A DNA stretch of 62,390 bases, from positions 1 to 62,390 of the forward strand of contig JAINDK010000038.1 of NCBI GenBank assembly GCA_019931185.1, given 5' to 3'. The position numbers and the translations under genes are program-made. The stretch is from Bryobacter sp. CoA8 C33 (GTDB lineage Bacteria; Acidobacteriota; Terriglobia; Bryobacterales; Bryobacteraceae). Under the pieces are notes generated by a model. That model saw nothing but the letters and a program-made list of their open reading frames with translations. It was not told the DNA's origin and did not search any database. Below are positions 32,505 through 39,185 of the stretch, one piece after another (position 1 is the stretch's first letter; the number at the start of each line of letters is the position of its first letter).

Positions 32505-33281
32505 ATGCTTTTGCCGATCCTTGTTTTGCTCGCCGCTGAACCGCTGCGGGACATTGAGTTCGCCCGGCCGGGGGGTGTCGCCTTAACCCTCGACGCTTCC
32601 ATTCCCGATGGCCCGGGCCCCCATCCCGCCGTGATCATCGTGCATGGTGGCGGCTTTATTCGCGGTGACAAACAAACCTATGTTCCGCCGTTATTTCCTC
32701 CGCTGTCGGCGGCCGGATTTGCGTGGTTTTCGATCAATTACCGGCTGGCGCCGCAGCATCAGTTTCCCGCTCCGATAGAAGACTTGAAGGCGGCAATGGA
32801 TTTTGTTCTGCGTAACGCCAAACAATATCGCGTCGATCCCAAGCGCATAGCCATTGCCGGGGAATCGGCGGGAGGCACGATAGTGGCGTACTACGGCGCC
32901 ACGGCGAAGGGGCGGCTGCGTCCGCGCGCGGTGATCGATTTTTATGGCGTGAGCGATTGGGAATTTCACCGCGACATGCTCGGCCAGTTGAGTGAGAATG
33001 CGCTGTCCTGGCTCGGCAAAGCGGATCTGAAGCCGGCATCGGCGATCAGCCACATCCGCAAGGACATGCCGCCCTTTCTGTTCATCCATGGGACGGCGGA
33101 CAAGCAAGTGCCCTTTCCCCATAGCCCGCGGATGTGCTCGGCCATGAGGGAGGCGGGCGCTTCCTGCGAGGTCTATGTGGTCGAGGGGGGAGCGCACGGC
33201 GTTGGCTCCTGGGAGAAGGAACCCACGCAACAAGGCTACAAGCGCAAGATGGTGGAGTGGCTGAAGGAGACGCTGCGCTAG
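32505..33281 (+). CDS. Alpha/beta hydrolase (BD-FAE/HSL-like esterase), secreted
   Basis: A 258-residue esterase with a short signal peptide (MLLPILVLLAAEP). The oxyanion motif is VHGGGFIRGD, the nucleophile elbow GESAGG is near residue 124, and the catalytic Asp is probably in HGTADKQVPF with the His in GGAHGVG. The HGGG plus GxSxG arrangement is that of the hormone-sensitive-lipase/BD-FAE group acting on acetyl or short acyl esters. ATG 32505 has AGGTGG 5 nt upstream, which decides against GTG 32496. It converges on the TonB receptor with a 4-nt overlap. Confidence 0.88.
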   Translation: MLLPILVLLAAEPLRDIEFARPGGVALTLDASIPDGPGPHPAVIIVHGGGFIRGDKQTYVPPLFPPLSAAGFAWFSINYRLAPQHQFPAPIEDLKAAMDFVLRNAKQYRVDPKRIAIAGESAGGTIVAYYGATAKGRLRPRAVIDFYGVSDWEFHRDMLGQLSENALSWLGKADLKPASAISHIRKDMPPFLFIHGTADKQVPFPHSPRMCSAMREAGASCEVYVVEGGAHGVGSWEKEPTQQGYKRKMVEWLKETLR

Positions 33282-36200
33282 AAATTGAGCCGCGCGTTGA
33301 GGATCACGATGCGGGGTCCGTTGTCGGTGCCGGTGATCTGTCCGAAGTTCACGTTGTTGATATTCTTCGACAGAAAAGTATCCATGTCGGTGAACCAGGC
33401 GCGGTTTAGCACGTTGTCGATGGTTGTCCCGATCTGCAATTGAACCCGTTCGCGAATTGTGATTGTCTTGAGCAGGTTCATGTCGAGCACGAAATAGCCG
33501 GGGCCGTAGAAGTAACGCAGGGGTGAGCTGCCGAGGGTGCCGGCCACGGGATTGACGGCGATGACGCGGCCGTCCTTGTCAGCGATAGCGCGCAGGGTGC
33601 TGCGATCCCGGACGCTATTGAGGTTGGTGATCGAGGCCACGCTTGGGTCTGTTACGCTCTGCAGGCCGCCGTAGAAGAATACGCCGTTGCCGCGCTTCTC
33701 AATGCGTCCGAGGTGGGCGCTCACGGGCGCGGTGAAGGTGGCGGTGTTGTCGCCCGAGAAATTGTTGAAGGAACTGCGGCCGCTATCCCAGGAAATCGGA
33801 ACGCCGCTGAAGATGTTGTGGATGGCCCCGATCTGCCAGTGTTCGAGCAGGCGGCCGAGCAGGCCGCGCGTGCCAGCGAAGAAGCGCCGCTTCGGTCCGA
33901 CGGGCAAGTCATAAAGCCAGTTGCCGCGGTACACGTGCGGGGCGCCGAAGCTGAGCAGCCGTTTTTCGATCGCACGGTTGCGCCAGGTACGATAACTATC
34001 GAGCATTTCCTGTCCGGCGCCTTCTTCTTCGCCGAGGGCCTTGGCCCAGGTATAGTTAGCCTGCACGCTGAGGCCGTTGCCGAAGCGCTTGCTCAGATCG
34101 ATTTGCAGGCTGTGATAGCTGGAGTTGGCGAAGTTACCGGCCAGCGTGGCGGCGGCGAACTGGGGGTTAACGACGACGAAGTTTTCGGGAAATCCGCCGA
34201 CGGTGAGTAAGCCGCCGTTGCGCCCGGCCACGGGTTGGGTATTGATGTAGTTGGCAAAAGCGCCGACGCTCTGGCCCGCCAGAAAGCCGGCCAGGGTGGC
34301 GTTGGTGCGCATGAAGGTGGATCCGCTGGCGCTGCCGCGGAGGCCCTGCAGCAGACGGTCGAGCAGCGGGCTCTCCTGGCCGGCTTGGGCGAGGCGGAAG
34401 GCGTCGAGGATACCGTTCTCGAGGATGTTCGTCTCGTTCAGGTTGGTGGCGCGAATGCCCCGCGTTCCTTTGTTGCCGACATAGCGGATGTCGAGCAGGA
34501 GGCCGCCCGGCAGTTGTCGTTGCAGGCTGGCATTCCAGTTCTGCACGTAAGGCTGGCGCAGGTTTTCGTCGAAGGCGCGCAAGGTTTGCTGGCGATCGCT
34601 CAAGGGGACCACCTCGAGCGGGGCCGCCGTGGGCACCAGAGGCAAGCGCACACCGGCGAGGGTCGTGAAGGTGGCCACGGGCTGCAGCACGCGATTGCGC
34701 AGCCCAGGCTGATCGCCGCTGAAGACATCGATGATGCGCAGGGAATTCCGCTCATAGCCCATGCTGTAGCCGGCGCGGAAGATCGTCTTGTTCTCGCCAA
34801 ACCAGGGTAGGGACCAGCTCAAGCCGACGGCCGGGGCGAAATTATTGCGGTCGGGCCGGAACAGCAGAGCGTCGGGATTTGCTGTTTTGGGCCCAATCAA
34901 TTCGACGCGGGACAGGCTGCCGCCCGTGGCGCCAGGGCGGAACATCGCCGTCTCATCGCGGCCGGAGATGCCGAACAGCCCCGCCTGTCTGCCCACGGTG
35001 GCCGCGGTTTTTCCGCTCTTGTCGTGCGGCACCTGGTAGAACTCATAGCGCAGGCCGATGTTCAGCGTGAGACGGCGGCTCACCCGCCAATCGTCCTTAA
35101 AGAAGAAATAGTGTTCGCGCGAGCGCCAAACCCGCGCCTTGAATTCTCCGGCCAGGTATTGCGGATTGGCGCCGCCTGGGGCGTTGAAGGCCTGGATGAG
35201 GCTGGCCACCGATCCGCTCAAGTCATTGAGCATGTTCTCGGCGGCAGTGCGGTTGGCGCCGAGGCCGGGAATGTTTTGAAAGTTCGCCACGGGAAGGATG
35301 CCCTGGCCGATGTTGACGCGCGGCATGACGTCGAAGCTGTTGAATCCGTTCGTCGAGGTAAACCAGACCGCCGCCCCGGCCTTGAAGTTATGCTTGCCCC
35401 GAATCCAACTCAGATTGTTGCTGTACTGATAGTTGGGGCTCAAACGGCCTTGGGGATCGTTGTCGGTAAGTACCGGGTCGGTGATGCTGACGAAGTCGAG
35501 CAGAAACGGTTGGTTGTTGATGCGCGGCAAGGCCGCCGCGCCGCCTTCGACTTCCCAGGGCGCGAGACTGCGGCTGCGGCTGCGCAAAACCCCCACGGTC
35601 ATCTCATTGGTCAAATTCGCCCGCACCACGCTGAACAGCTTGAAGGCATAGGCGCTGTCGGGGGAATCGACCGCGCCACCGGGGGTATTGGGAAAACGCT
35701 GGCTCTGGAATCCATTCGGGGATTGAGACGTCTCGCGATTCCAACTGAAGGTGAAGCGCTGCCGTTCGCTGAAGTTGTGGTCGAGCTTCAGGCTGATTTG
35801 GTTCGTGTCCGAGCCCGAGGGCTGGATCCATGTAAAGCCCGCCGTGTTGAGGCCATCGCCGGCGTTGAACACGTTCGGCAGCGGCATGAGATCGAGAGCC
35901 GACCGTACGAGGCCGCTTGCGTCGGGGCGTGTCCGGTTGGGGTCGAATTGGAAGAGATTGACAGTCTGCAGGGCGCCTGTCGCCCCGGCTGGTGCGACCG
36001 GGTTGCCGGAGAAATCGACGACGGGGCGCAGCGCGCTGGCATTGCCGTTCTGTACGCCGGGGAAAAAGCGGAAGATGCCTTGCCGGGCCTGTTCGGTGAA
36101 GACGGTACGGGTGACGCGCGAGCGCTGGCGGATGCGCTCGCCTTCGAACAAGACATGAAAGAAGGTCCGGTTGCGGCCGTTGTAGAGCTTTGGCAGCTCC

Positions 36201-37039
36201 ACCGGGCCGCCCAGCCGGGCGCCAAACTGATTGCGCACCAGGATGTTGCGGGGAGCGATCGCCGTGCCATCGGCGTTGCTGCCCTGCAGATTGTTGAAAA
36301 AGGTATTTGCATTGAGAACGGTGTTGCGATGGTACTCAAACAAACTGCCGTGATACTCGTTAGTGCCGCTGCGGGTGATCATCTGGATTTGGCCGCTGCC
36401 GCGTCCGAGTTCCGCGTCTGCCGGGGAGGTGACCACGCGGAACTCGGCGATGCGGTCGACGCTGAGGAAGAACGGGTTCGACCGGCCCTGGTTGAGGCGT
36501 GCGTCTTGTGTGTTGACGCCGTCCACCTGGATGTTCAAGGTGCCGATGCGAGCACCGGAAAAGTAGCTGCCGAAAGTCCCGGCCTGGGTGGTGGCCAGTG
36601 TGAGGGCATTGCGGCTGGTGATGGGCAATTCGAGCACGCGCTTGCTTTCGACAACGCCGCCTACCGAGGAGGTGGCGTAGGCAAGATCCGTGCGTGCCTC
36701 CGCGACGACTTCGACGCTGCCCGCCGCCGTTGCCACCTCGAGCGTGACATCGAGGGTCAGCTTGGCGCCTACATCGAGTTGGATCCTTTCGAGCGTCGAC
36801 TTCTTAAACCCGATCATCTCGACGCTCAAGCGGTACTGGCCGGGGTTCAGGGCGGCGAAGGAGAAGAGTCCCTGACGATTGGACCGTACGGCCGTTACGA
36901 CTCCCGTGTTGCGGTTGACCGATTCCACTTTCGCCTCGGGCACGATGGCCCCTGAGGAATCGCGGATGGTGCCGGAAATCGAGCCGTCCGTCATTTGCGC
37001 CAGAGCGCTTGCGGCGGTAAACACGAGCACAAGATACAT
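33278..37039 (-). CDS. TonB-dependent receptor with carboxypeptidase-regulatory-like domain
   Basis: A 1253-residue outer-membrane protein of the large acidobacterial OAR/TonB type. The signal peptide ends ALAQ, a CarboxypepD_reg domain (SISGTIRDSSGAIVPEAKV) covers about residues 18-105, and a plug-like domain with IQVDGVNTQDARLNQG and GSGQIQMITRSGTNEYHGSLF lies at about 115-235. The remainder is a beta-barrel ending in a short aromatic C terminus (RLNF). It probably imports a large or complex nutrient using TonB energy. The substrate is unknown. The start has no Shine-Dalgarno; TATTCT lies 8 nt upstream. Confidence 0.88.
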   Translation of the reverse strand: MYLVLVFTAASALAQMTDGSISGTIRDSSGAIVPEAKVESVNRNTGVVTAVRSNRQGLFSFAALNPGQYRLSVEMIGFKKSTLERIQLDVGAKLTLDVTLEVATAAGSVEVVAEARTDLAYATSSVGGVVESKRVLELPITSRNALTLATTQAGTFGSYFSGARIGTLNIQVDGVNTQDARLNQGRSNPFFLSVDRIAEFRVVTSPADAELGRGSGQIQMITRSGTNEYHGSLFEYHRNTVLNANTFFNNLQGSNADGTAIAPRNILVRNQFGARLGGPVELPKLYNGRNRTFFHVLFEGERIRQRSRVTRTVFTEQARQGIFRFFPGVQNGNASALRPVVDFSGNPVAPAGATGALQTVNLFQFDPNRTRPDASGLVRSALDLMPLPNVFNAGDGLNTAGFTWIQPSGSDTNQISLKLDHNFSERQRFTFSWNRETSQSPNGFQSQRFPNTPGGAVDSPDSAYAFKLFSVVRANLTNEMTVGVLRSRSRSLAPWEVEGGAAALPRINNQPFLLDFVSITDPVLTDNDPQGRLSPNYQYSNNLSWIRGKHNFKAGAAVWFTSTNGFNSFDVMPRVNIGQGILPVANFQNIPGLGANRTAAENMLNDLSGSVASLIQAFNAPGGANPQYLAGEFKARVWRSREHYFFFKDDWRVSRRLTLNIGLRYEFYQVPHDKSGKTAATVGRQAGLFGISGRDETAMFRPGATGGSLSRVELIGPKTANPDALLFRPDRNNFAPAVGLSWSLPWFGENKTIFRAGYSMGYERNSLRIIDVFSGDQPGLRNRVLQPVATFTTLAGVRLPLVPTAAPLEVVPLSDRQQTLRAFDENLRQPYVQNWNASLQRQLPGGLLLDIRYVGNKGTRGIRATNLNETNILENGILDAFRLAQAGQESPLLDRLLQGLRGSASGSTFMRTNATLAGFLAGQSVGAFANYINTQPVAGRNGGLLTVGGFPENFVVVNPQFAAATLAGNFANSSYHSLQIDLSKRFGNGLSVQANYTWAKALGEEEGAGQEMLDSYRTWRNRAIEKRLLSFGAPHVYRGNWLYDLPVGPKRRFFAGTRGLLGRLLEHWQIGAIHNIFSGVPISWDSGRSSFNNFSGDNTATFTAPVSAHLGRIEKRGNGVFFYGGLQSVTDPSVASITNLNSVRDRSTLRAIADKDGRVIAVNPVAGTLGSSPLRYFYGPGYFVLDMNLLKTITIRERVQLQIGTTIDNVLNRAWFTDMDTFLSKNINNVNFGQITGTDNGPRIVILNARLNF

Positions 37040-37047
37040 ATCCGTTC

Positions 37048-37053
37048 AGAATA
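37048..37053 (-). promoter_or_regulatory. -10-like TATTCT of the TonB receptor gene
   Basis: TATTCT on the minus strand at 37053-37048, exactly 8 nt before the ATG at 37039. No clear -35 is visible. The spacing predicts a leaderless transcript. Confidence 0.4.
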
Positions 37054-37146
37054 GCGAACCGCCCCGTGTGATCCTCCTGTCAGCCTGCGCGCCATTCCGC
37101 CGGGTTTTATGGCATCCTACAAAGCGTTGCCACTTTCGGAGGCTTT

Positions 37147-37428
37147 ATGATCACTTGCCCGGCTTGTGGAGCCGATATTGACATTGAAGAAGATGACCTG
37201 GACGAGGGCGATCTGTTTGACTGCACCGAGTGCGGGGCCAATCTTAAAGTTGCGAGCCTGAAACCGCTCGAGCTCATCGCCATCAAGGACAACGGAAGCT
37301 TCGAGCAAGACGAAGAAGACGAAGATTTCGAGGACGAGGACGAGGACGAGGACGAAGAGGAAGAGGAAGACGACGGCTACGAGGATGAGCTCGAAGAAGA
37401 AGAGGATGAAGAGGACGACTGGAATTAG
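37147..37428 (+). CDS. LysW-like zinc-ribbon protein with hyperacidic tail
   Basis: A 93-residue protein. The first about 40 residues resemble the carrier protein LysW/AmCP: CPACGADIDIEEDDLDEGDLFDCTECG, two CxxC knuckles for one zinc, followed by LKPLELIAI. The last about 40 residues are almost only Asp and Glu, ending EEDDWN, similar to the EDWGE end of LysW. In LysW the C-terminal Glu carries the substrate in lysine/arginine synthesis, but here the protein ends in Asn and no lysX/argX-type ligase is nearby. A carrier role is therefore unlikely or altered. GGAGG lies 4 nt before ATG 37147. Confidence 0.8.
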   Translation: MITCPACGADIDIEEDDLDEGDLFDCTECGANLKVASLKPLELIAIKDNGSFEQDEEDEDFEDEDEDEDEEEEEDDGYEDELEEEEDEEDDWN

Positions 37429-37759
37429 GCGGCGTAGCTTTCTGGGAATCGCCGTAATCCTGTTCGCGGAGAATTCCCATGCCGTGATTGCTGGTACTGT
37501 CTTTCGTGAGACGGGTCATGCGTTTGCGGGAGTTGAAGTTTCCCTGACGCCGGATTCGCCCTCGAAAAAGAACAAAAAACAAACATTCCGCTGCAATACC
37601 CGGGGTGAGTTTGCTTTTCGCGTGCCGGCTTCGCCGCAAGAGTACACGCTTGCCGTCAGCCCCGATGGCTATCGTGGGGAGCAAAAGCGCGTCAAAATAT
37701 TAGGGGACGAACGCATCGAGCACAACTTTTTGCTCGACCGTGCAACCAAGGAGAAGTAA
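37406..37759 (+). CDS. Secreted carboxypeptidase-regulatory-like domain protein
   Basis: A small protein (117 residues from ATG 37406; 124 from ATG 37385) with an N-terminal signal (RRRSFLGIAVILFAENSHA) followed by one beta-sandwich of the carboxypeptidase-regulatory type: GTVFRETGHAFAGVEVSLTPD and GEFAFRVPASPQEYTLAV. ATG 37406 starts close to the signal peptide. The gene overlaps the acidic tail of the LysW-like gene in another frame (23 or 44 nt), so translation is probably coupled. It is the second gene of a five-gene plus-strand cluster to 39185. The function is unknown. Confidence 0.75.
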   Translation: MKRTTGIRRRSFLGIAVILFAENSHAVIAGTVFRETGHAFAGVEVSLTPDSPSKKNKKQTFRCNTRGEFAFRVPASPQEYTLAVSPDGYRGEQKRVKILGDERIEHNFLLDRATKEK

Positions 37760-37761
37760 TC

Positions 37762-38157
37762 ATGGCCAAGCGCTCTATTCTGAGCCTGTTGGTGTTAGCG
37801 GCGATCGCCGCCGCTCAGCAGCTACCAGCCCCCACACCCAAGAATCCGCCTTTGTTCAAGGGCGACAAGAACAAGAAGGATGATGGTTCGCGAGTCCTGC
37901 GGGGAGTGGTTCGCGATCCCGCCGATAATCTCGCCGAAGGCGTCGTTGTCAAGCTGAAGGACACCAAGTCGCTGACGATCCGTTCCTTCATCACCAAGGC
38001 TGATGGCGCTTATCACTTCCAGGGACTTTCCGCCGGCACCGATTATGAACTGCGCGCCGAGAAGTCCGATGGCGCTGTGAGTTCAACGAAAACGCTGTCG
38101 GTGTTCGATACCCGGCGGGAACCGGTCATTAATCTCAAGCTCGAAGCCAAGAAATAG
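37762..38157 (+). CDS. Secreted carboxypeptidase-regulatory-like domain protein
   Basis: A 131-residue protein with a signal peptide (MAKRSILSLLVLAAIAAAQQ), a Lys-rich linker, and one CarboxypepD_reg-like sandwich: VLRGVVRDPADNLAEGVVVKL, GAYHFQGLSAGTDYELRA and a final strand VINLKLEAKK. AAGGAG precedes ATG 37762 by 8 nt. It follows the related small protein by 2 nt; the two may have arisen by duplication, although sequence similarity between them is low by eye. Likely periplasmic or attached to the envelope. Confidence 0.78.
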   Translation: MAKRSILSLLVLAAIAAAQQLPAPTPKNPPLFKGDKNKKDDGSRVLRGVVRDPADNLAEGVVVKLKDTKSLTIRSFITKADGAYHFQGLSAGTDYELRAEKSDGAVSSTKTLSVFDTRREPVINLKLEAKK

Positions 38158-38166
38158 GAGTCGACC

Positions 38167-38709
38167 ATGCGCACACGGCGTACCGTTTTGGCGGCAATTT
38201 CCGCCGCCACGCTGCTTCCGGGGGCTGACCCGATGACCGTGCGGGACCTCGCCGGCAAAGCCGTGACGATCATGCCCGGAAAGGACGTCACGGTGGTCAC
38301 GTTCATTTCGACGCAGTGCCCGATCTCGAACGATTACAACGATCGGATGATCTCGCTACACAACAAATTTACGGGGAAGGGAGTCAAGTTCTTCTTCGTG
38401 AATGCCAATTCAACAGAGCCCCTGGCGGTTGTCGCCGAGCATGCCAAGGCGGTTGGATTTCCGTTTCCGGTCTATAAGGACGAGAACGCCGCCGACAAGC
38501 TGAATGCGCAGGTGACTCCCGAATCTTTTGTTTTCGACAAAACGGGTGAGCTTCTCTATCACGGCTATGTCGATGATGCCCGCAACGCAGCGCGTGTGCA
38601 GAACCATGGCTTGCGGGACGCCATTGAAGCCGCACTGGCCGGCAAAGGTGTCTCCCAAGCCAACACGAAGGCCTTTGGTTGCACGATCAAGCGAGCGAGG
38701 CGGAGTTGA
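38167..38709 (+). CDS. Thioredoxin-fold redoxin family protein
   Basis: A 180-residue exported protein (signal MRTRRTVLAAISAATLLPGA) with a thioredoxin fold of the AhpC/TSA-redoxin kind: VTVVTFISTQCPISNDYNDRM carries a single active-site Cys (CPIS) in place of CxxC. TPESFVFDKTG holds the cis-Pro. A C-terminal FGCTIKR gives a possible resolving Cys. This suggests a peroxiredoxin-like or atypical thiol role. GGAG lies 6 nt before ATG 38167. The TlpA-like gene overlaps by 1 nt (TGATG), so the two redox proteins are made together. Confidence 0.85.
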   Translation: MRTRRTVLAAISAATLLPGADPMTVRDLAGKAVTIMPGKDVTVVTFISTQCPISNDYNDRMISLHNKFTGKGVKFFFVNANSTEPLAVVAEHAKAVGFPFPVYKDENAADKLNAQVTPESFVFDKTGELLYHGYVDDARNAARVQNHGLRDAIEAALAGKGVSQANTKAFGCTIKRARRS

Positions 38710-39185
38710 TGCGGAATCTGCTTTTGTTGCCGCTGGCCGGGTGTCTGCTGGCGGCGCCCCCCGTCAAGCTGAATCCGGTGGACGAGGCCGGATATCAGAA
38801 ACAGGTTGCCGCCCGGAAGGGTAAAGTGTTGCTCGTTAATTTCTGGGCCACCTGGTGTGAACCGTGCCGCAAGGAAATGCCGGAACTGGGCCGCATGCAG
38901 ACCAGCCTGCGCTCGCGGGGTTTTGAGCTGCTGACGATTTCCGCCGATGAGCCGGAAGATGAGAAAGCCGCGGTGGCTTTTCTGGTCAAGGCGGGCATAC
39001 CGGACCCTGCGTATCTGAAGCGTGTGAAGAACGACGACCGCTTTATCAACTCAATCGATGCGAAGTGGTCTGGCGCGCTGCCGGCTCTGGTGCTTTACGA
39101 TCAGAGTGGTAAGAAAGTCCGGACTTGGGTCGGTGAATCCGATCTGAAGGCGGTGGAGGCCGCGATCAAGAAGTTGCTGCTCTAG
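38709..39185 (+). CDS. TlpA/ResA-like thiol-disulfide oxidoreductase, possible lipoprotein
   Basis: A 158-residue thioredoxin-fold protein with CxxC at C50 and C53 (FWATWCEPCRKEMP), the usual WCxxC of TlpA/ResA that reduces disulfides in the periplasm. The N-terminal LAGC (C12) matches a lipobox, so it may be membrane-anchored. The cis-Pro region reads GALPALVLYD. The start ATG 38709 shares bases with the redoxin stop. It ends the cluster begun by the LysW-like gene and converges with lnt. Confidence 0.87.
   Translation: MRNLLLLPLAGCLLAAPPVKLNPVDEAGYQKQVAARKGKVLLVNFWATWCEPCRKEMPELGRMQTSLRSRGFELLTISADEPEDEKAAVAFLVKAGIPDPAYLKRVKNDDRFINSIDAKWSGALPALVLYDQSGKKVRTWVGESDLKAVEAAIKKLLL

Follow-up and report, generated by a model that had tools for sequence, protein, structure and literature searches.

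The contig JAINDK010000038.1 of Bryobacter sp. CoA8 C33 (assembly GCA_019931185.1; Bryobacteraceae, Acidobacteriota) was analysed over positions 1 to 62,390 (the window, 62,390 nucleotides in all), in which five plus-strand genes at 37147-39185 encode a LysW-like zinc-ribbon protein, two CarboxypepD_reg proteins (CPD1 and CPD2) and two thioredoxin-fold proteins (TRX1 and TRX2). LysW is known as the carrier for lysine and arginine synthesis. Comparison with relatives indicates that the five genes belong to an operon-like set that is conserved within one Acidobacteriota class, the Terriglobia, and that the LysW-like protein, the ribbon of which is predicted to have the LysW fold, has apparently lost the carrier function. 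This class-wide context is new for a known fold family, and in the window a class-wide gene set replaces five loose annotations. The genes and the region upstream of them are:

37147..37428, plus strand: LysW-like gene, 93 amino acids, with a four-Cys zinc ribbon (residues 1-45) and a polyacidic tail ending EDDWN
37406..37759, plus strand: CPD1, 117 amino acids, CarboxypepD_reg domain, twin-arginine-like N-terminus, exported as judged by eye, start inside the LysW-like gene
37762..38157, plus strand: CPD2, 131 amino acids, CarboxypepD_reg (transthyretin-like), exported as judged by eye, the constant partner of the LysW-like gene
38167..38709, plus strand: TRX1, 180 amino acids, redoxin-like, with a TQCPIS motif and a C-terminal GCTIKR, exported as judged by eye
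38709..39185, plus strand: TRX2, 158 amino acids, TlpA-like thiol-disulfide oxidoreductase with a WATWCEPC motif, exported as judged by eye, its ATG overlapping the TRX1 stop codon
37040..37146, no strand: intergenic region between the LysW-like gene and a divergent gene of 1253 amino acids (33278-37039)

A search of 61 genomes of relatives, including the window's own, found the LysW-like gene in 38 genomes with a single match in each, so that 37 further loci were compared with that of the window; the class and family names of these relatives (Terriglobia, Bryobacteraceae, Acidobacteriaceae) were inferred. The gene was present in 34 of 37 genomes of the window's own family (f1), in 2 of 2 of family f2, in 0 of 18 of family f3 and in 2 of 4 further genomes from the class. 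A CPD2 relative lay downstream of it on the same strand at 38 of 38 loci, and the remaining genes were optional (CPD1 at 28 loci, TRX1 at 20 and TRX2 at 20). Within the 38-locus set, adjacency to CPD2 spans four families, f1, f2, f4 and f6, and it extends to a further one, f8 (probably Acidobacteriaceae), in which CPD2 was found at 16 of 16 loci, TRX1 or TRX2 matched at 0 of 16, and 41 of 43 genomes carried the LysW-like gene in a separate draw of 396 genomes of the phylum. The flanks of these loci are reshuffled: gene families outside the operon were each seen at 10 of the 38 loci at most, with the exception of one antisense cluster of 58 open reading frames, which we read as reverse-strand shadow frames. 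The persistence of the cluster throughout the class amid changing flanking genes is more than chance. The preliminary description of this DNA had proposed a carrier-like protein tied to envelope redox proteins; the neighbourhood of LysW-like genes with long acidic tails is indeed not random, and the part of the claim that stands is the exported partner (CPD2 beside all 38), whereas each thioredoxin-fold gene accompanies only 20 of the 38.

A scan of named genomes gave a similar picture, with CPD2 downstream at 77 of 80 loci (the best 80 of 141), all titled as Acidobacteria lineages except one titled Bordetella. Of the three loci without CPD2, one has only 65 nucleotides remaining downstream (L102), one is of the larE type described below (L090), and the third (L125) is taken up with the adaptor reading. 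The record titled as a metagenome-assembled genome of Bordetella parapertussis (L112, CALQCC020000006.1) carries a Bryobacterales-type locus and is probably mislabelled. At loci of f8 and of similarly titled genomes, including L181, the commonest flank was a gene judged by eye to encode a rhomboid-like membrane protease, located upstream on the opposite strand at 23 of 28 loci.

In the window, neighbouring genes overlap or are separated by 2-9 nucleotides, in keeping with the overlapping or nearly abutting plus-strand genes described previously. The likeliest CPD1 start by eye is the ATG at 37406, within the LysW-like gene, in preference to an alternative at 37385. Export of CPD1, CPD2, TRX1 and TRX2 was judged by eye from a hydrophobic N-terminus, as was the twin-arginine-like start of CPD1 in the window's genus, and the LysW-like protein has no signal sequence by eye; the earlier view of four exported proteins and one without a signal was therefore shared, by eye only. 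Family assignments were above cut-off for all five proteins: PF21344 for the LysW-like protein (44.2 bits, cut-off 27), which is the sole match to this family in its own genome (5.05 Mb, 97.7% complete), PF13620 for CPD1 (37.7 bits, run on 37409-37756) and CPD2 (39.1 bits; cut-off 32.3 for both), and the AhpC/TSA-redoxin superfamily for TRX1 (PF08534, 38.1 bits, cut-off 26.6) and TRX2 (PF00578, 52.4 bits, cut-off 26). The long acidic tail ends EDDWN as described and holds 35 Asp or Glu among its last 48 residues, somewhat fewer than the approximately 40 first claimed. Computed full-length charges are -44 for the LysW-like protein and +7.8, +7.6, +5.8 and +4.5 for CPD1, CPD2, TRX1 and TRX2, respectively, the export precursors being basic (predicted isoelectric points of 9-10). 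Comparison with five genus mates showed purifying selection on all five genes, with synonymous divergence (pS) of 0.48-0.92 and nonsynonymous divergence (pN) of 0.09-0.15 in the ribbon (the most conserved part), 0.13-0.20 in the tail and 0.15-0.28 in the other four genes.

The divergent gene at 33278-37039 is Oar/TonB-receptor-like by eye, with a CarboxypepD-like start, and several genus mates have relatives of it upstream of their operon. The intergenic region (37040-37146) was searched for a sigma-70-type promoter and gave no match. A role of CPD1 in nickel handling was considered and rejected, the NikL match being weak (19 bits, cut-off 100), and no phage family matched the LysW-like, CPD1 or CPD2 proteins.

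The assignment of the ribbon to the LysW fold rests on profile and model comparisons. The four Cys of the ribbon are invariant in 29 sequences, and a search of the family profile against solved structures placed Thermus LysW first (2.1e-11). The LysW-like protein scored 36.2 bits against the LysW equivalog model TIGR01206, below its cut-off of 53.2, and LysW was still the nearest NCBIfam model. In the AlphaFold2 model the ribbon is confident (block means of 86-90 over residues 1-40) and the tail is low (48-65 from residue 51), and Foldseek returned LysW chains at ranks 1-6 (root-mean-square deviation 0.9-1.4, E 0.0018 to 0.22), so that the predicted ribbon is of the LysW fold. CPD2 was modelled as a confident beta-sandwich with a mean predicted local distance difference test score of 84.7, the fold of which matched the N-terminal extension of a TonB-dependent transporter, carboxypeptidase accessory domains and CnaB-type domains. 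Fusion of the ribbon to another domain was also considered, but the long frames found (L268 and L269) looked by eye like read-through of upstream DNA.

Loss of the carrier function is indicated by both the protein and its genome. According to the portion of PMC10433800 consulted, cargo is attached to the C-terminal Glu of EDWGE in LysW and ArgW, the motif is recognised by LysX/ArgX, and replacement of this Glu by Ala results in arginine auxotrophy in a haloarchaeon. The substrate-bearing C-terminal Glu is absent from the window protein and from 36 of the 38 members of the set. No LysX/ArgX (TIGR02144) was over cut-off in any of the 61 genomes, own included; the best match of the own genome (37.5 bits) lies in a 1072-amino-acid open frame, the size of which suggests carbamoyl-phosphate synthase, and DapF is present there over cut-off. 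Within the phylum draw, LysX exceeded the cut-off in 43 of 396 genomes, none of them of the window's class, and at 1e-30 matches were found in 92 genomes, again none from the class. LysW-type matches occurred in 164 of the 396 genomes and included 26 of the 43 LysX genomes, so that most LysW-type genes found there come from genomes without LysX over cut-off, assuming that both searches drew the same 396 genomes. As a positive control from other classes, nine LysW genes shared a contig with LysX, seven of them adjacent to it and two at 1.2 and 4.1 kb; these encode proteins of 53-55 amino acids ending EDWGE (eight) or EDWGQ (the one at 4.1 kb), and L203 is a tenth canonical LysW ending EDWGE. 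No lysine or arginine synthesis gene adjoins the LysW-like gene of the window, the neighbours being CPD1, CPD2 and TRX genes. A carrier for lysine or arginine synthesis was rejected on the absence of LysX over cut-off, the presence of DapF and the missing terminal Glu. The preliminary description was thus right that the tail differs from EDWGE and that no ligase is nearby (LysX is absent from the locus and, over cut-off, from the whole genome), and the constant company of lysine or arginine synthesis genes that would have spoken against it does not occur; "carrier-like" is the part that falls.

In place of the terminal Glu, the window's family has a terminal Trp. Trp lies within the last two residues of 33 of the 38 proteins, none of which ends in Glu. 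The residue after it is K (10), R (7), N (6), H (3), S (1) or Q (1), and in 5 proteins Trp itself comes last; two of the five members without this end terminate in Glu. Elsewhere Trp is rare, with just 2 further residues in the 2872 of the 38 proteins. A 99-amino-acid LysW-like protein from outside the Terriglobia (L265) ends DKDWK, as do many of the window's family, and neither larE nor CPD was found in the short stretch examined around it.

Our tentative explanation is that the LysW-like protein is a LysW-derived cytosolic adaptor, no longer a carrier, that is co-expressed with an envelope module, for which we infer the following mechanism. The first gene would yield a cytosolic zinc-ribbon protein of the LysW fold with no carrier function, and the downstream genes an envelope module. 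This would comprise CPD1 and CPD2, small basic beta-sandwich proteins of transthyretin type of which a locus has one or both, joined at roughly half of the relatives' loci by the redoxin and the TlpA-like thiol oxidoreductase, with the operon presumably read as one transcript. The ribbon would be a platform to which other proteins bind, and the disordered, polyanionic tail, together with the Trp at its end, would be the motif on which a basic partner docks. The likeliest partner would be the co-translated basic export precursors, which would be held until export, or else a protein that regulates the module. The envelope part may stabilise or redox-proof surface proteins. In LysW the fold serves to offer an acidic C-terminal arm to the basic surfaces of enzymes, and it would here be reused to dock a basic partner without covalent cargo. 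If this is true, a carrier fold has been turned into an adaptor, keeping its fold and Trp and losing its attachment residue and ligase, with possible intermediates within one phylum.

Several points weigh against this putative adaptor. No Foldseek match of the LysW-like model reached an E of 0.001, which may be due to the shortness of the domain, and what is conserved in the tail, its end excepted, is chiefly the composition. Within the 38-locus set the Trp end is limited to f1 (33 of 34 versus 0 of 4 others), and the f8 proteins end in Asp or Glu (13 of 16) or in A or S (three), so that the Trp cannot be essential to a class-wide role. The parts also occur without each other. Family f3, of the same order, has a CPD2 relative in 17 of 18 genomes though no LysW-like match in any of the 18, and CPD1 preceded CPD2 at 13 of 13 f3 loci inspected, 6 of which also had a TRX2-like match; the CPD1-CPD2 pair is therefore independent of the LysW-like gene and the link is not obligatory. 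These exported proteins without a LysW-like gene further weaken the claimed tie to redox proteins. Adjacent CPD2 was found at 0 of 24 LysW-like loci of other classes, and at L125 no CPD was found within 1001 nucleotides after the LysW-like gene, a regulator-like open reading frame standing there instead. An acidic LysW-like remnant ahead of CPD1 in f3 was looked for, and no open reading frame of at least 40 amino acids with more than 22% Asp/Glu was listed. The genus mate G005 has no LysW-like match, and its CPD1-CPD2-TRX locus is close to a contig end, so this absence may be an assembly effect.

Nearly as likely as the adaptor is a stable neighbourhood without functional contact, in which the LysW-like protein would have a cytosolic job of its own, common to all classes, and would be co-transcribed with envelope genes only in the Terriglobia. 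The f3 loci fit this explanation, as do L125 and the LysW-like genes of other classes, which lack CPD2 and often stand beside larE. What it leaves to be accounted for is an adjacency kept in f1, f2, f4, f6 and f8 despite reshuffled flanks, and the presence at three loci of other classes of a double-domain CPD1-like protein that starts 1.2-1.6 kb from the LysW-like start. At these loci (L212, L214 and L215) it is the second half of the protein that is CPD1-like (2e-16 to 1e-24), and an opposite-strand gene lies between the two starts; the opposite-strand neighbour of the LysW-like gene at L212, L214, L215, L216 and L218 encodes 318-406 amino acids and is VWFA-domain-like by eye.

The invariant four-Cys ribbon precedes redoxin and TlpA-like genes in the window, as would be expected of a zinc or thiol sensor in which the ribbon loses zinc under thiol stress and the tail controls how far the envelope redox module is expressed or how stable it is. 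Such a sensor is unlikely, as the redox genes are the most dispensable of the set (20 of 38 each, and no TRX1 or TRX2 match at the 16 f8 loci) and no DNA-binding part was seen.

A different partner was found outside the Terriglobia, where 38 non-canonical loci were chosen from the phylum matches by family and fetch limits, with L090 added, and are not a random sample; ten canonical loci (L203 and L252-L260) were set apart, and L196 and L217 were dropped for having less than 300 nucleotides downstream, leaving 36 assessable. The larE gene lay directly downstream on the same strand at 17 of these 36 (L090, L159, L160, L169, L174, L176, L197, L198, L199, L201, L204, L207, L209, L210, L262, L263 and L264), with gaps of -3 to 72 nucleotides, some of which, like some CPD1 overlaps, depend on the start chosen or extrapolated. 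There was none in 18; the remaining locus, L266, has larE at 747 nucleotides and was counted as non-adjacent, and at L261, without larE, just 387 nucleotides are available downstream. Two of the downstream proteins were confirmed as LarE by TIGR00268 (311-318 bits). Like the window protein, the larE-linked LysW-like proteins have the ribbon, mostly a long acidic tail (14 of 17, total length 72-89 amino acids) and often a Trp near the end (12 of 17); unlike the CPD-linked window family, they stand directly upstream of larE, and their last residue is Glu (15 of 17) or Asp (2 of 17). Three are short and near-canonical (55-56 amino acids, ending DEWEE or DDWEE). Among 16 larE-linked genomes, LysX was over cut-off in one (G360), and LarC was also present in 10 of 13 tested, so that the nickel-pincer cofactor is probably what LarE serves in these genomes. 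In a tree of 71 ribbons, built on 46 columns only, the context labels were clustered (0 of 500 shuffles as low).

At L198, L199, L207 and L209 the LysW-like and larE genes are followed by a similar membrane protein of approximately 740-810 amino acids, glycosyltransferase-like by eye, and the first 360 amino acids of that of L199 had no NCBIfam match. LysW-type proteins of approximately 50 amino acids without a long acidic tail or EDWGE were seen at L205, L206 and L208, in f45 genomes that also have a larE-linked copy. No larE match was found at CPD-linked loci, larE matches occurring only at loci outside that set. LarE acting in trans in the Terriglobia was considered as well; larE is present elsewhere in the genome in 59 of 61 window relatives, with or without a LysW-like gene, so the co-occurrence is uninformative there and the idea was set aside. 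In the own assembly no larE was detected, though seven genus mates have one and LarC is present, possibly owing to an assembly gap.

LarE inserts sulfur sacrificially into the nickel-pincer cofactor. A rather improbable history that would join the two contexts is that Acidobacteriota made a second system of the LysW fold, one that does not handle amino acids. In several families outside the Terriglobia the terminal Glu of the LysW-like protein would be activated by LarE, the LysW-like protein carrying sulfur or an intermediate and sparing LarE its suicide chemistry; in the Terriglobia it would have left larE for the module of exported beta-sandwich and thioredoxin proteins, and in the window's family it would have lost the Glu and kept a Trp dock as a non-covalent adaptor. 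The pairing with larE is the most testable lead. It points to a specific possible partner for this sulfur transferase, the self-consuming chemistry of which is puzzling. The C-terminus of LysW-like proteins tracks gene context, being EDWGE near LysX, Glu or Asp beside larE, and Trp with a polar or basic residue or nothing after it beside CPD in the window's family, so the role of the C-terminus can be tested directly. Among the papers listed in a literature search, with subscription papers mostly outside it, no account of this cluster or of a link between LysW and LarE was seen; in the part of PMC8305020 consulted, both are named in unrelated places.

Two further explanations concern the tail. 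The LysW fold, an acidic W-ending tail that recalls EDWGE, and LysW-like carriers reported in natural-product clusters (available part of PMC8346489) would suit a true amino-group carrier served by a ligase of another kind, with cargo on another tail carboxylate or on the alpha-carboxyl group; this is very unlikely given the lack of a terminal Glu, a last residue that varies among K, R, N, H, S, Q or none, LysX over cut-off in 0 of 61 genomes (other ligase families were not searched) and the presence of DapF. Least credible of all is that the tail codons serve mainly in translation, the purine-rich gene end being a ribosome-binding site and coupling element for CPD1, a candidate start of which lies within them in the window and several relatives, and the protein end a by-product: Trp is retained at the end in 9 of the 10 loci that have no CPD1, and is thus a feature of the protein, and tail pN is low relative to pS.

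The components resemble known systems to differing degrees. TRX2 shares the WCxPC active site of the TlpA/ResA/DsbE thiol oxidoreductases, and TlpA (NF047696) is its best NCBIfam model at 80.8 bits, which is under the cut-off of 230. CPD1 and CPD2 share the transthyretin-like beta-sandwich of the CarboxypepD_reg or N-terminal extension of TonB-dependent transporters (PDB 9hfj, a Foldseek match) but are free-standing small single-domain proteins. In the part of PMC8346489 available, LysW-like carriers, likewise outside lysine and arginine synthesis, are reported in natural-product clusters (family 3 encapsulin operons); those sit in biosynthetic clusters, whereas no biosynthetic enzyme was seen in the window set. 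LysW and ArgW (TIGR01206, PF21344) have in common with the window protein the four-Cys zinc-ribbon fold and an acidic C-terminus with Trp near the end. The window protein differs from them in its length (93 versus 53-55 amino acids), its 48-residue acidic tail and the lack of a terminal Glu, and its set, without LysX over cut-off, is operon-like with exported proteins.

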